The position numbers and the translations under genes were made by a program. DNA of 37,399 nt, from positions 1 through 37,399 of the forward strand of contig CAMRSY010000014.1 of NCBI GenBank assembly GCA_947053545.1. The letters are read 5' to 3'. Within the stretch, counting starts at the first letter, position 1. Every line of letters begins with the position of its first letter. The notes below the pieces were generated by a model. The model searched no databases, was not told the DNA's origin, and worked only from the letters and a program-made list of their open reading frames with translations. This document shows, in pieces, positions 9,751 through 15,230 of the stretch. This stretch comes from an uncultured Clostridia bacterium. Its GTDB lineage: Bacteria; Bacillota; Clostridia; Christensenellales; Borkfalkiaceae.

Positions 9751-11097
9751 TCAGTCCTCGTAATAATTTATAACGAGATTGTTAAGTTTGTGAAACGCCT
9801 TTGCAGGTTTTATCTGCTTCTCTATCTGCCTCGGCGCGTTGACGAGATGAAGCGACGAACAGCCGACGAAAGCCTGTCTGCCCAAAGTTTTTAACGAACG
9901 GGGCAAATCGAAAGCGACTAACGAACGGCAGTTAATAAACGCAACCTCGCAAATGCTTTGCAAACCCTGCGGGAAATTTATTTCCCTTAATTCGTAGCAT
10001 TCGGCAAAAGCCCAGGCGCCTATTTCGGTAAGATTTTTAGGCAAAGTCACCTTTCTTAAATTTTCGCAGTGCGAAAACACGCCTTCGGCAAGCCGCATTA
10101 TACCGCGGGGCACGGTTATCTTTTCAAGCGAAACACAAAAATCGAAAGCGCGGCGGCTGATTGTATGTAACGATTCGGGAAGGTAAAGTTCCTTTATCGA
10201 ACTGCAGGCGCGGAACGCGTTGGCGCCTATAAATTTCAAATCGGGCGGGATATCCACGTTTTCAAGCGCGCTGCAGTTTGAAAACGCACCGTCGTCAATC
10301 ATTTGCAAACTTTGCGGCAAATGTATTTCCGTAAGCTTTTCGCACCAGCTGAACGCGTTTTTACCTATAAGCTTTAAATGAGGCGGCAAAATCACCTTTT
10401 CTACGTCGCGGTTGGAAAACGCGTTTTCTCCTATGCGCGTAATGAAATCTGGCACCTGAGTTTGCTTGTTGGTACCGATATACTTTATAACCTCGTCGTC
10501 AACGATAAGATAGTCGGAAAGGTTGACAAGCGAATTACGGCGAACGCCGTCGGCATCATTTAAAGGGTCGTGCGGAATTATGTCTTCCATTCTTTCCTTT
10601 AAGCTTCTGTCGTCCAAATCGATTTCCTGTTCCTCAAGCTCCTGCTCGAGCGGAAACTCTTCCACTATCGTAATAATTTCTTCCGACTGCACCTCGTCGG
10701 TAAACGCCCTTTCCGCGTCGTTTATACCCGAAGCTACGTATTCTTCCTCCGACTCGAATTTATCGGAATAATCTTCGTCCTCCGTCTGGGCGCCGGCCGA
10801 CGCATAGAAACGGAAATAAATGTCGGCGTCGGAAGGAAAAACCTTGCCGCCGTTTACCCTGCGGAACAGCCTGCCGGGAATTGTTACCTCCACAAGATTG
10901 TCGCAACCGAAAAACGCGCCTTTACCTATTGACGCAAGCTTGACCGGCGCAACGACTTTTTTAAGCGTTTTACAGCCCGCAAAAGCGTACGGCGCTATAC
11001 GCACTACGTTTTTTGGCAATGCAAGCTCTTCGTCTTGCCCCCTGTATTTAAGCACCGTTCCCGCCTGAATATTTAGTTCGCCTTTCGCGGTTTTCAT
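9751..11097 (-). CDS. BspA-type leucine-rich-repeat protein, apparently intracellular, with an acidic linker
   Basis: A 448-residue protein made of LRR_5 (BspA-like) repeats of the form LP..L..IG..AF..C..L..V. Two repeats lie at the N-terminus (about 23-75) and about nine at the C-terminus (about 210-425). Between them (about 105-190) is a strongly acidic stretch rich in Glu and Asp, likely disordered. The block after the linker begins like the N-terminus (VIKYIG versus VLKYRG, each followed by a VP or LP repeat), suggesting duplication of a cap-plus-repeat unit. No signal peptide, membrane segment or cell-wall anchor is seen, unlike most BspA proteins, so it may be cytoplasmic and bind proteins. 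The repeat call is firm; the role is unknown. Confidence 0.85.
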   Translation of the reverse strand: MKTAKGELNIQAGTVLKYRGQDEELALPKNVVRIAPYAFAGCKTLKKVVAPVKLASIGKGAFFGCDNLVEVTIPGRLFRRVNGGKVFPSDADIYFRFYASAGAQTEDEDYSDKFESEEEYVASGINDAERAFTDEVQSEEIITIVEEFPLEQELEEQEIDLDDRSLKERMEDIIPHDPLNDADGVRRNSLVNLSDYLIVDDEVIKYIGTNKQTQVPDFITRIGENAFSNRDVEKVILPPHLKLIGKNAFSWCEKLTEIHLPQSLQMIDDGAFSNCSALENVDIPPDLKFIGANAFRACSSIKELYLPESLHTISRRAFDFCVSLEKITVPRGIMRLAEGVFSHCENLRKVTLPKNLTEIGAWAFAECYELREINFPQGLQSICEVAFINCRSLVAFDLPRSLKTLGRQAFVGCSSLHLVNAPRQIEKQIKPAKAFHKLNNLVINYYED

Positions 11098-11206: not shown

Positions 11207-11437
11207 TTACAGTGACGAATGTATAGTTCTTGAAATAACGTCGTCTTGTTGTTCTTTGGTCAATTTGTTGAAATTAACCGCATATCCCGAAACCCTTATA
11301 GTAAGCTGAGGATACTTTTCGGGATGAGCCTGCGCGTCCAGCAGCGTTTCGCGACTGAATACGTTTACGTTTAAATGATGTCCGCCGTCCGCTACGTACG
11401 CGTCAAGCATATTTACCAAATTGTCTGCTCTGGACAT
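11207..11437 (-). CDS. Separate glycyl-radical subunit of a split pyruvate formate-lyase (GrcA-like)
   Basis: This 76-residue protein is the C-terminal glycyl-radical piece of pyruvate formate-lyase, encoded as its own gene. It carries the RVSGYA loop with the radical glycine G51 and the surrounding [26 protein letters not shown] and [13 protein letters not shown] segments. It resembles the stand-alone repair protein GrcA (YfiD) of E. coli. Here, however, the neighbouring large gene lacks this domain entirely, so it is a required subunit and not a spare part. The start is an ATG with AAGGAG seven bases upstream, 40 bases after the large subunit's stop. It continues the homology almost exactly where that protein ends. 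Confidence in the domain is very high. Confidence 0.95.
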
Positions 11438-11444
11438 AATAATT

Positions 11445-11450
11445 CTCCTT
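11445..11450 (-). promoter_or_regulatory. Shine-Dalgarno of the glycyl-radical subunit
   Basis: AAGGAG on the minus strand, seven bases before the ATG of the 76-residue gene. Its quality and spacing show that the gene has its own initiation site, which argues against a frameshifted or interrupted single pflB. Confidence 0.85.
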
Positions 11451-11477
11451 GTTTAATTACTTTCTATACGATAACTT

Positions 11478-13508
11478 TTATTCGTCTTTACCCAGCGACG
11501 CGGGAGTAACCGAAAACGTGTTGGAAATACCGTCGCGCGAGTATTCGTAGGGCAGTTTGGCAACCGATTCAAGCGAGGCGAGCGCGCCGTTTTTATCCCT
11601 GCCGTGCATTGGATTTGCGCCGGGAGCAAGGGGCGTTCCCGCCCTTCTGCCGTCAGGAGTGTTGCCCGTTTTTTTGCCGTACACTACGTTTGACGTAATA
11701 GTTAAAATCGACGTGGTGGGTACGCTGCCGCGGTATGTGTAATGACTTTTAACCTTGTTCATAAACGTCTTTACAAGCCAAACCGCAATTTGGTCTACCC
11801 TGTCGTCGTTGTTGCCGTACTGCGGATATTCGCCCTCGGTTTTAAAGTCGACGACAAGCCCTTCTTCGTTGCGCACGGGATAAACTTTGGCGTACTTTAT
11901 TGCCGAAAGGCTGTCAACCGCGCACGATAATCCCGCTATACCGGTAGCGAAGAAACGCCTTACCTGCGTATCGTGCAACGCCATTTCCAAAGCTTCGTAC
12001 GAATATTTGTCGTGCATATAATGTATGAGGTTAAGCGTGTTTACATACAACCCCGCAAGCCAGTCCATCATCTGTTCGTACTTGGTTACAACCTCTTTAT
12101 AATCGAGAGGTCCGTCGCCGAGCACCGGCGAATACATAGGCGAAACCTGCAAGTGTTTACCCGTCTTTTTATCTATCGTCACCTCGTCCTTGCCGCCGTT
12201 AATAGCGTAAAGAAGACACTTTGCAAGGTTGGCGCGCGCACCGAAAAACTGCATATCTTTGCCCACGCGCATACAGCTGACACAGCACGCGATACAATAA
12301 TCGTCGCCCATTTCGGGACGCATCAAATCGTCGCTTTCGTACTGTATTGCAGATGTGGCTATAGACGTTTCGGCGCAGAATTTTTTAAATCCAGACGGAA
12401 GATTTCGGGACCATAGCACCGTTAAATTGGGTTCGGGCGCAGGACCCAGATTTGTCAGGGTGTGAAGAATTCTGAACGAATTTTTAGTTACGAGCGTTCT
12501 GCCGTCCACACCCATACCGCCTATCGATTCGGTTACCCACGTAGGGTCGCCGGAAAACAGTTCGTTATAGTCCTTTATGCGCATAAATTTTACAATGCGC
12601 AGTTTCATAACAAAATGGTCGATAAGCTCCTGCGCCTCGCGCTCGGTAAGCGTGCCGTTGGTAAGATCGCGCTCGATATATATGTCAAGGAAGGTTGAAT
12701 TTCTGCCTATCGACATAGCCGCGCCGTTCTGGTCCTTTACCGCCGCAAGATACCCGAAATACAGCCATTGTATAGCCTGCTGCGCGGTTTGCGCGGGACC
12801 GGAAATATCGAAGCCGTACAGCGCCGCCATTTCCTTTAACGCCGACAGCGCCTTTATCTGTTCGGAAAGTTCTTCCCTGTCGCGCACTTTATCGGGCGTC
12901 ATATCGCCGTCTATCAAATCCTTGTCGCGCTTTTTGTGTTCTATTAGATAATCCACACCGTACAGAGCAACACGGCGGTAATCGCCTACGATTCTGCCCC
13001 TGCCGTACGTATCGGGCAAGCCTGTTAAAATATGCGCAGTACGGGCGCGTCGCATTTCGGAGGTGTATGCGTCGTACACACCGTCGTTATGCGTTTTGCG
13101 GTAATGCGTAAAAGTATATTTTATTTCGGGGTCGAGTTCGTAGCCGTACATATTTAAAGCCTGCTCGCTCATTTTAATGCCGCCGAAAGGCTGAAGCGCG
13201 CGTTTAAACGGCTCGTCCGTCTGTAATCCCACTATTTTTTCAAGTTCTTTATCGATATATCCCGCGGGATGGCTTGTAAGCGTGGAAACGACTTTGGTGT
13301 CCGCTTTCAACACTCCGCCCGCCCTGCGCTCCTGCTCAGAAAGTTTTAAAACCTCTTCCCACAGTTTTTTCGTGGCCTGAGTAGGTCCTTCCAAAAACCC
13401 GCCGTCGCCCTCGTAAGGTTTATAGTTATGCTGAATAAAGTCGCGCACGTTAACCTCGTCGTCGCTCCATTTACCGGCCGTAAATCCTTCCCACTGTTTA
13501 AATAACAT
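11478..13508 (-). CDS. pflB: Pyruvate formate-lyase large part, lacking the glycyl-radical domain
   Basis: Formate C-acetyltransferase converts pyruvate and CoA to acetyl-CoA and formate in anaerobic metabolism. The 676 residues align along the whole N-terminal and barrel part of the family. They include the catalytic Cys pair C408-C409 in [23 protein letters not shown]. The protein stops after [18 protein letters not shown], where the normal enzyme of about 750 residues continues into the radical domain. That domain is the next gene, and the two lengths sum to 752. The start is an ATG preceded by AGAGGAG eight bases upstream. A dimer of large subunits with two small subunits would be expected. 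The PFL identity is certain; activity of the split form is inferred. Confidence 0.96.
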
Positions 13509-13543: not shown

Positions 13544-13825
13544 TTATCGTCCTGTCTTTGCCTCTACCCAAAGTTCGAGAATTTCCAAAGGCTGGTACCC
13601 CGAACACTTGGCTATTTCCTTACCGTCTTCCACAAGTACAATCGAAGGTATTCTTTCCAAATTAAACCGTTCTATCAATTCGGGATTTTCGTTTACGCTG
13701 AATTTAACGAATTTCAAACCGAATTTTCGGGCTACCGCCGCGCAGTTGGGCATAACCGCAAGGCACGCGTCGCACCCTTCTCCGCTTATTTCCAATAAAC
13801 ATTTGCCGCTTAAGCCGTAATTCAT
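13544..13825 (-). CDS. Thioredoxin-like protein inside the pfl operon
   Basis: A 93-residue thioredoxin-fold protein with a CDAC redox motif (C18-C21) after the first strand and the cis-proline segment RIPSIVLVEDGKEI near 65. It is somewhat shorter than a standard thioredoxin and lacks the WCGPC signature. The start chosen is the ATG that overlaps the pflA stop (ATGA); the longer upstream reading runs back through the end of pflA. It sits between the activating enzyme and its substrate enzyme, so reduction of a component of this system is a reasonable guess. Candidates are the activase, the Cys pair and the glycyl-radical subunit. It could instead be a general thioredoxin. Confidence 0.82.
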   Translation of the reverse strand: MNYGLSGKCLLEISGEGCDACLAVMPNCAAVARKFGLKFVKFSVNENPELIERFNLERIPSIVLVEDGKEIAKCSGYQPLEILELWVEAKTGR

Positions 13826-14544
13826 TTTATTATTCCCAAAATTTTTTTTGCGTTTAAAACGCGCTCGGCAGACGGCGGCTGCATTCCGCTTAAAGCGTAG
13901 TTTAAACACATATTTTTATACTTTACCTCACCCATAGAATGGTAAGGAAGCACCTCGACCTTTTCTACGTTTTTAAGGCTTTTTATAAATTCAGAAAGCC
14001 CTTCCAACCACTCGTCTTTATCCGTAAGTTCAGGCACCAGTACATGGCGTATCCATACGGGTTTGCCTGTTTCCGATAAATATCCGGCAAAATTCAAAAC
14101 GTTTTCGTTAGAGTGCCCTGTAAGCTTTATATGTTCGCCGTTATCTATATGCTTTATATCCAAAAGCACCAAATCGGTAACCGACATCAGTTCTTCTATC
14201 TCTTTACGGGTATTACCGTTAAAAATAATTCCGGACGTGTCTAACGCGGTGTGCACCCCCGCATCCTTCAAAATTTTAAACAGTTCGTATACAAATCCGG
14301 TCTGTAAAAGCGGTTCGCCGCCCGAAACCGTAACTCCCCCTCCGCCCGTAAAATAGCTTTTATATTTTAAAGCGTTTGCGGCGACCTGCCGGGGCGAATA
14401 AATTTTGCCGTTATTGCGCGCCCACGTATCGGGGTTGTGACAATAAAGACAGCGCATAAGGCAACCTTGCATAAAAACGACGAAACGTATTCCCGGTCCG
14501 TCGACCGTTCCGAAAGATTCGAATGAGTGAATATATCCGTCCAA
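13822..14544 (-). CDS. pflA: Pyruvate formate-lyase activating enzyme (radical SAM)
   Basis: Generates the glycyl radical on pyruvate formate-lyase using a 4Fe-4S cluster and S-adenosylmethionine. The N-terminal HSFESFGTVDGPGIRFVVF signature leads into the radical-SAM motif C28-x3-C32-x2-C35. The GGGGVTVSGGEPLLQ SAM-binding segment follows. Length 240 is typical. Translation starts at TTG with GGAGG nine bases upstream; an ATG eight bases further upstream is in another frame. It is the first gene after the ZTP riboswitch and precedes pflB, the reverse of the order in E. coli. Its stop overlaps the start of the thioredoxin-like gene. Confidence 0.96.
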   Translation of the reverse strand: MDGYIHSFESFGTVDGPGIRFVVFMQGCLMRCLYCHNPDTWARNNGKIYSPRQVAANALKYKSYFTGGGGVTVSGGEPLLQTGFVYELFKILKDAGVHTALDTSGIIFNGNTRKEIEELMSVTDLVLLDIKHIDNGEHIKLTGHSNENVLNFAGYLSETGKPVWIRHVLVPELTDKDEWLEGLSEFIKSLKNVEKVEVLPYHSMGEVKYKNMCLNYALSGMQPPSAERVLNAKKILGIIK

Positions 14545-14780: not shown

Positions 14781-15230
14781 TTAAACAAACGAATAAATAA
14801 GCCCTACCAGTACTCCGGAAAACACTCCGAAAACAATTATAGGTCCGGCAACCGTAAACATTTTTGCCGCCATACCGTATATCCAGCCCTCGGTTTTAAA
14901 CTCGATTGCGGGCGAAGCGACCGAGTTTGCAAATCCCGTAATTGGCACGATTGAACCCGCGCCGGCATGCCTGCCTATCCTGTCGTAAACGCCTAACCCT
15001 GTTAAAAGACAGCTTAAAAATATCAAAATAACCGAAACAGTACCCGCCAGAACGTCGCCAGAAAGCCCTGCGTATTCAAGCATAAAGCGGAAAAACTGAC
15101 CTATACAGCAGATTAATCCGCCTACACCGAAAGCGGAAAGACAGTTTTTAAAGTGTTTCGATTTTGGCTCCTGCGTTTTTATATACTGCAAATAGTTTGC
15201 GTTGTAATTTTCCTTATGCTTTCCTGTCAT
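14781..15230 (-). CDS. spoVAC: Stage V sporulation protein AC (SpoVAC)
   Basis: Small membrane protein of the SpoVA channel, which moves dipicolinic acid into the forespore and out during germination. At 149 residues it has a hydrophilic N-terminus and several membrane helices. Family landmarks are visible: GGLICCIGQ, GAGSIVPITGFANSVASPAIEFKTEG and a hydrophobic C-terminus. In most spore-formers spoVAC is followed by spoVAD and spoVAE(b); here the next gene downstream is the pfl operon, so it is an isolated copy. It follows an SDR gene and a 31-codon ORF whose end overlaps its start. It suggests sporulation ancestry but does not prove sporulation. Confidence 0.9.
   Translation of the reverse strand: MTGKHKENYNANYLQYIKTQEPKSKHFKNCLSAFGVGGLICCIGQFFRFMLEYAGLSGDVLAGTVSVILIFLSCLLTGLGVYDRIGRHAGAGSIVPITGFANSVASPAIEFKTEGWIYGMAAKMFTVAGPIIVFGVFSGVLVGLIYSFV

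Follow-up and report, generated by a model that had tools for sequence, protein, structure and literature searches.

A pyruvate formate-lyase encoded as a body and a separate glycyl-radical subunit in an uncultured Clostridia bacterium and in other lineages

Pyruvate formate-lyase (PFL) is a central enzyme of fermentation and a classic case of irreversible damage by oxygen. In the operon of an uncultured Clostridia bacterium studied here, its adjacent catalytic cysteines and its RVSGYAV glycine motif are both present, but they sit on two open reading frames (ORFs) and not on one chain, so that a canonical single-chain PFL had to be rejected. The locus raises the question of whether the two genes specify two chains of one enzyme. 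We addressed it in the window, by which we mean the whole stretch of 37,399 nucleotides that was analysed, and in the genomes of close and distant relatives. Oxygen cleaves the PFL backbone at the glycine (PMC12288474), and this cleavage is irreversible (PMC13252398); the PflB of gut bacteria is treated as one protein in the available part of PMC9403272. A two-piece PFL suggests that the fragile radical piece could be replaced on its own.

The operon lies on the minus strand in the order pflA, thioredoxin-like gene, large PFL gene and small gene (Table 1). The large chain has a mass of 75.9 kDa, and its 676 residues and the 76 of the small chain add up to the 752 counted in an earlier, sequence-only reading, which had also given the small gene an AAGGAG and an ATG of its own, as we find. 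Just 5' of the operon is a gene for a SpoVAC/SpoVAEB sporulation membrane protein (14781-15230, PF03862) in this assembly of about 1.5 Mb, and directly 3' of the small gene is one for a BspA-type leucine-rich-repeat protein (9751-11097).

Table 1. Features of the split PFL operon, with positions in the window
Feature	Position	Strand	Basis
pflA, PFL-activating radical SAM enzyme	13822..14544	-	TIGR02493 312 bits, cut-off 231.75
Thioredoxin-like gene, CDAC and GYQPLEI motifs	13544..13819	-	Family member known from split-PFL loci
pflB-like large subunit (PFL body), 676 aa, without radical domain	11478..13508	-	PF02901 692 bits; TIGR01255 1083.5
Cys408-Cys409 codons	12282..12287	-	Aligned with E. 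coli active-site cysteine pair
40-nt spacer between large and small gene	11438..11477	-	ORF positions
AAGGAG ribosome-binding site of small gene	11445..11450	-	7 nt before ATG
Glycyl-radical subunit (GrcA3-like), 76 aa	11207..11437	-	PF01228 81 bits; NF038360 155.5; TIGR01255 666-744
Codon of Gly51 (radical glycine), RVSGYAV	11285..11287	-	Aligned with E. coli G734

The two chains divide a single PFL profile between them. The large chain covers positions 1-663 of the 744 of TIGR01255, and its 1083.5 bits pass the cut-off of this curated formate C-acetyltransferase model (994.2) even without the radical domain; the small chain matches positions 666-744, the part missing from the large one. E. 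coli PflB (TIGR01255; PDB chain 1h16) resembles the window in body sequence, cysteine pair, glycine motif and pflA partner. It is a single chain, whereas the window is cut between body residue 676, aligned with E. coli residue 678, and small-subunit residue 4, aligned with 682, in keeping with the earlier estimate that the homology resumes about two residues later. Both cysteines are invariant in all 33 aligned split bodies, and the dedicated activating enzyme PflA is encoded in the same operon, scoring over its TIGR02493 cut-off. ORFs and profile matches thus agree with the earlier description of a body with the Cys-Cys pair and a separate 76-residue glycyl-radical subunit. The two-gene enzyme should work like PFL, and the genes very probably encode two chains of one pyruvate formate-lyase, with the radical predicted on the small chain and that subunit perhaps replaceable.

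Among the alternatives, the one that survives best is that the small gene provides only a repair cofactor for oxygen-damaged PFL, as GrcA does in E. coli. GrcA/YfiD (TIGR04365; PDB 6owr) is, like the small chain, a stand-alone glycyl-radical domain. YfiD, 127 residues long and disordered over its first half, restores damaged PFL, according to the available text of PMC8683613; the small chain, whose residues 16-76 align with YfiD 67-127, has a different, short N-terminus and a body gene adjoining it. Assignment to GrcA itself was rejected, the TIGR04365 score of 100.9 being below the family cut-off of 170. The closest named family is NF038360 (GrcA3), which the small chain equals in length and sequence, scoring just below its cut-off (155.5 bits against 158). 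Six split relatives score from 151.1 to 170.3, four of them above 158, one printed as exactly 158 and one below, and the model separates split from fused forms poorly, since one fused segment scores 150.9 and fused matches elsewhere reach 143.5. The NCBIfam name "autonomous glycyl radical cofactor GrcA3" implies a repair cofactor, whereas the genomic data imply a subunit: the adjoining body lacks a radical domain, and profile searches of the host genome, an assembly 85.55% complete, found no intact PFL. There, TIGR01255 matches only the two pieces, and Gly_radical matches only these and one other gene, an NrdD beside NrdG. The search for an intact PFL elsewhere in the genome, which the sequence-only reading had proposed, thus favours the split, and an intact gene in the missing part of the genome is possible. 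We consider a purely repairing role quite unlikely. The small chain may be both subunit and spare part, and in Lachnoclostridium sp. An118, which holds an intact PFL plus a split pair, rescue of the intact enzyme is possible. An118 also means that the split form need not be a cell's only PFL.

Homologues of the small chain extend to phages. Radical-domain matches to it occur in 1538 of 50,697 phage records, and among the annotated rows listed the match lies under the names glycyl radical cofactor, PFL or anaerobic ribonucleotide reductase. Six unannotated phage records (H1-H6) match the small subunit at 71-80%, which may reflect bacterial contamination.

A survey of related genomes for the same split had likewise been proposed earlier. 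TIGR01255 matched in 50 of the 61 genomes of the window's genus. The junction was readable in 49 loci, one per genome: 33 have the split, always at one position, and 16 are fused. The fiftieth genome has an N-terminal fragment only, and in this search an intact PFL accompanied a split pair in none of the 61. In the family, 184 of 251 genomes had a match, and among the matches listed both forms occur within three genera (g2, g9 and g11). Confinement of the split to the window's genus was rejected, since split loci were found in other genera, families and lineages. A contig scan ranked by likeness to the small gene covered the best 80 of at least 574 relatives, a sample biased towards relatives of the small gene, from which no frequency follows; our script called 73 of these split, 2 fused and 5 a small gene alone. 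One of the 73 (L128) was read through a run of N and is ambiguous, and five have a body truncated where the contig stops, with the junction still visible. Titles of the split-locus records name uncultured Clostridia, Candidatus Coproplasma, Gallimonas, Anaeroplasmataceae, Acholeplasmatales, Erysipelotrichaceae, Lachnospiraceae, Ruminococcus and Gastranaerophilales, and two named strains, Lachnoclostridium sp. An118 and Diplocloster modestus ASD4241, have the split form. Of the 55 genomes in the family to which one Anaeroplasmataceae genome belongs, 45 matched the GrcA3 model; the matching frame is short and stand-alone in 43 of them and long in 2. A phylum-wide sample gave NF038360 matches in 136 of 398 genomes. 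Short frames with GrcA3-level scores occurred there in the window's genome and in G508, a confirmed split; G488 has a 110-aa frame at 79 bits, G484 and G313 have frames of 252 and 198 aa, and the other listed frames have at least 740 aa. As nearly all listed frames are long, the split appears uncommon across the phylum as sampled. In one locus (L028, small-gene frame from 2981) the stretch from body to small gene translates as CHSERSRRIS, which resembles what we take to be a repeat common in metagenome assemblies.

The loci so collected bear on whether the two frames are joined into one chain by programmed readthrough or frameshifting. The frames are in phase in 35 of 113 split loci, and seven named loci have a single stop between them. 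Across the 113 loci, which include near-copies, however, the spacing from stop to ATG runs from -1 to 427 nt (median 44) and its length modulo 3 is distributed 35/43/35, with no frame preferred. All three stop codons terminate the body in the 33 split loci of the genus (TGA 20, TAA 12, TAG 1), and the listed small genes start with Met shortly before a conserved NL motif. Mixed stops and unconserved phase argue for two independent frames, and joining of the frames is very improbable. An assembly or sequencing error, in which a false stop or frameshift has broken an intact gene, might be suspected in a draft of 43 contigs, but a cut at this place recurs in dozens of assemblies, some of them of named strains, with differing spacers and stops and a start codon that belongs to the small gene, and makes this explanation scarcely credible. 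A decaying pseudogene pair, which a small genome and a gene divided relative to that of E. coli might suggest, is just as implausible: the body cysteines are invariant, and both genes are under strong purifying selection. In nine comparisons of the window with relatives, with synonymous sites near or at saturation, dN/dS is 0.03-0.09 in the body gene and does not exceed about 0.05 in the small one. The earlier interpretation therefore stands as far as it describes a PFL divided into body and radical subunit, a form that many genomes share and that strong purifying selection maintains; the advantage in repair or turnover that it attached to the division is something we continue to infer.

If the two chains form one PFL, the 76-kDa body would hold the Cys-Cys pair and the pocket for the substrate. 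The 76-residue subunit would associate with it, docking at the site that the C-terminal domain occupies in E. coli PFL, and the PflA of the same operon would install the radical on its Gly51, from which the small chain would pass it to the body cysteines. A small subunit cut by oxygen could then leave and be replaced, and the body would be kept. Artificially cut E. coli PFL offers a precedent. In the part of PMC8683613 available, the enzyme cut at 695/696 and combined with YfiD or its C-terminal half was activated poorly and then had wild-type activity, binding of YfiD to the body cut at 695 was too weak to be measured, and residues 696-733, which that body lacks, appear to be a recognition element. 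Likewise, by the available text of PMC12338860, E. coli PflB G734A makes formate in vivo only with GrcA present. Docking of a detached radical domain is not automatic, given the weak binding of YfiD, and the natural split body also has no counterpart of E. coli residues 696-733. Since the body is without the element by which YfiD recognises cleaved E. coli PFL, we propose as a candidate docking handle the roughly 14 N-terminal residues by which the small chain extends beyond its YfiD/GrcA-aligned part.

Two solved structures, PDB 38la and 38lb, entitled "Formate acetyltransferase" and of 687 and 739 aa, match the window's body to its end at LGK, and 38lb extends about 52 residues further, like the tailed bodies described below. 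No chain of either entry is among the PDB matches listed for the small subunit. By their sequences, both look like split-PFL bodies without a radical domain. These structures, the family name GrcA3 and the linked thioredoxin-like gene had been overlooked by the sequence-only reading.

The thioredoxin-like gene follows the split closely. Where pflA lies within 800 nt upstream, 78 of 88 split loci have the thioredoxin-like gene between pflA and the large gene, as against 0 of 24 fused ones; among representatives at 92% identity the counts are 34 of 41 and 0 of 17. All 34 representative thioredoxin-like proteins have a CxxC, and in a 12-row alignment the motif G-x-Q-P-x-E-I near the C-terminus (of the GYQPEEI type) is invariant. 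In a whole-genome profile search of 47 hand-chosen genomes, a strong match (83-132 bits) was found in 17 of 19 split genomes, partly by construction, since the profile was built from split-locus proteins, some of them from the searched genomes; none was found in 24 fused genomes, which are drafts, or in 4 genomes without PFL, the best score among all of these being 46.5 bits, and the absence from the fused genomes is not by construction. The two split genomes without a match (G023 and G047) sit near fused relatives in the tree, and an ancestry-independent test of the association had too few pairs (median p 0.5). No thioredoxin-like gene was detected at the split loci of the group comprising Lachnospiraceae, Ruminococcus and Gastranaerophilales, whose bodies carry a tail after LGKD. 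In alignment A1, at least two tail cysteines occur in 12 of 16 such tailed bodies and in 0 of 17 bodies of the other clade. In the Gastranaerophilales group (L107, L119, L136 and similar ones) the tail of the body is short and contains a GDL motif and CGCC-like cysteines, and the tails of Lachnospiraceae bodies are cysteine-bearing too. We speculate that the thioredoxin-like protein may keep the active-site cysteines of the body reduced while the pocket is empty, and that protein and cysteine tail may share a common redox role.

The division does not appear to be permanent. In trees built from the body only, the fused PFLs of the window's genus and family are nested within the clade of split ones. 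A minimum of 7 changes of state is needed on 94 representatives, of 6 on 61 and of 6 on 84 with wider sampling, and strongly supported branches alone force 5, 4 and 4. AU tests, on groups picked after seeing the tree, reject grouping the nine nested fused rows together or placing them outside the split rows (p-AU 0.001 and 0.0005). The radical domains of the nested fused PFLs have a mean identity of 85-92% to split small subunits, against 65-71% to outgroup fused domains. In the more widely sampled tree, one clade of fused and two of split PFLs meet at an unresolved fork, compatible with one or two origins of the split. The simplest reading that these results suggest is that the gene was divided once or twice long ago and that the parts were later re-fused several times; repeated fission, or transfer between lineages, are other possible histories.

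Some genomes carry additional genes for the radical subunit. More than one small gene is present in 5 of the 43 split genomes of the Anaeroplasmataceae survey (G684, G685, G686, G687 and G722), leaving out G688, whose second copy may be due to a contig end. Copies unlinked to a body occur in the first four and in a Gastranaerophilales genome (G693); in G722 one extra copy stands alone and another adjoins a body fragment. Extra and operon copies share a contig only in G685, where they encode the same protein with DNA 97.9% identical over 236 nt, and wrong binning is possible elsewhere. Five genomes of a set of 40 had been picked for a lone small gene (L076, L095, L098, L115 and L130), and that set gives no frequency. 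At L095:4430-5228, the extra gene of G685 lies 28 nt after a rubrerythrin gene (PF02915), itself after SUF iron-sulfur assembly genes, which fits the prediction of a replaceable part, though the rubrerythrin link was seen once. A general placement of extra copies beside oxygen-defence genes was rejected, as the others have unrelated or unclear neighbours, one being near a Crp-like ORF. Profile searches found no second copy in the 61 genomes of the window's genus, nor was one present in 28 split genomes of its family, which have a single copy each.

An advantage in repair or turnover draws indirect support from the unlinked extra genes in 5 of 43 Anaeroplasmataceae split genomes and one Gastranaerophilales genome. 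The predicted ribosome-binding sites point the same way, the small gene having a stronger site than the body gene in 85 of 113 loci and a weaker one in 21, with 7 ties, a weak comparison in that near-identical loci are included and starts are assumed; in the window the small-gene site is marginally the weaker. The lack of second copies in the genus and in the 28 family genomes, and the several apparent re-fusions in related species, speak against such an advantage. A wider picture would be of a modular PFL with a consumable radical subunit, stocked by extra genes in some lineages and supported by a dedicated thioredoxin-like protein, or in another lineage by a cysteine tail, that would keep the emptied active site reduced; re-fusion would end the arrangement, with loss of the thioredoxin-like protein. 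Here too the missing second copies count against it, and we regard it as possible, if doubtful.

The split PFL is partly known, the small family being named GrcA3 in NCBIfam and what look like its bodies being present in PDB 38la/38lb, so that these proteins have at least come to the notice of specialists. We found no description of a natural split PFL in the open-access literature, a scope that excludes most subscription papers, and "GrcA3" was absent from the library searched. The link of the thioredoxin-like gene to split PFL, the re-fusion of split PFLs and the unlinked extra small genes are each apparently new, and are the parts of this work most likely to be so.

Annotation that expects a full-length PflB may mislabel split genes. 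A natural two-subunit PFL would be a ready system in which to ask whether radical domains can be swapped in living cells, what such a domain needs in order to dock and how it is recognised by PflA when it stands on a chain of its own. To judge from the available text of PMC8683613, these points have so far been addressed with artificially cut E. coli PFL. The natural split also bears on how anaerobes survive oxygen.
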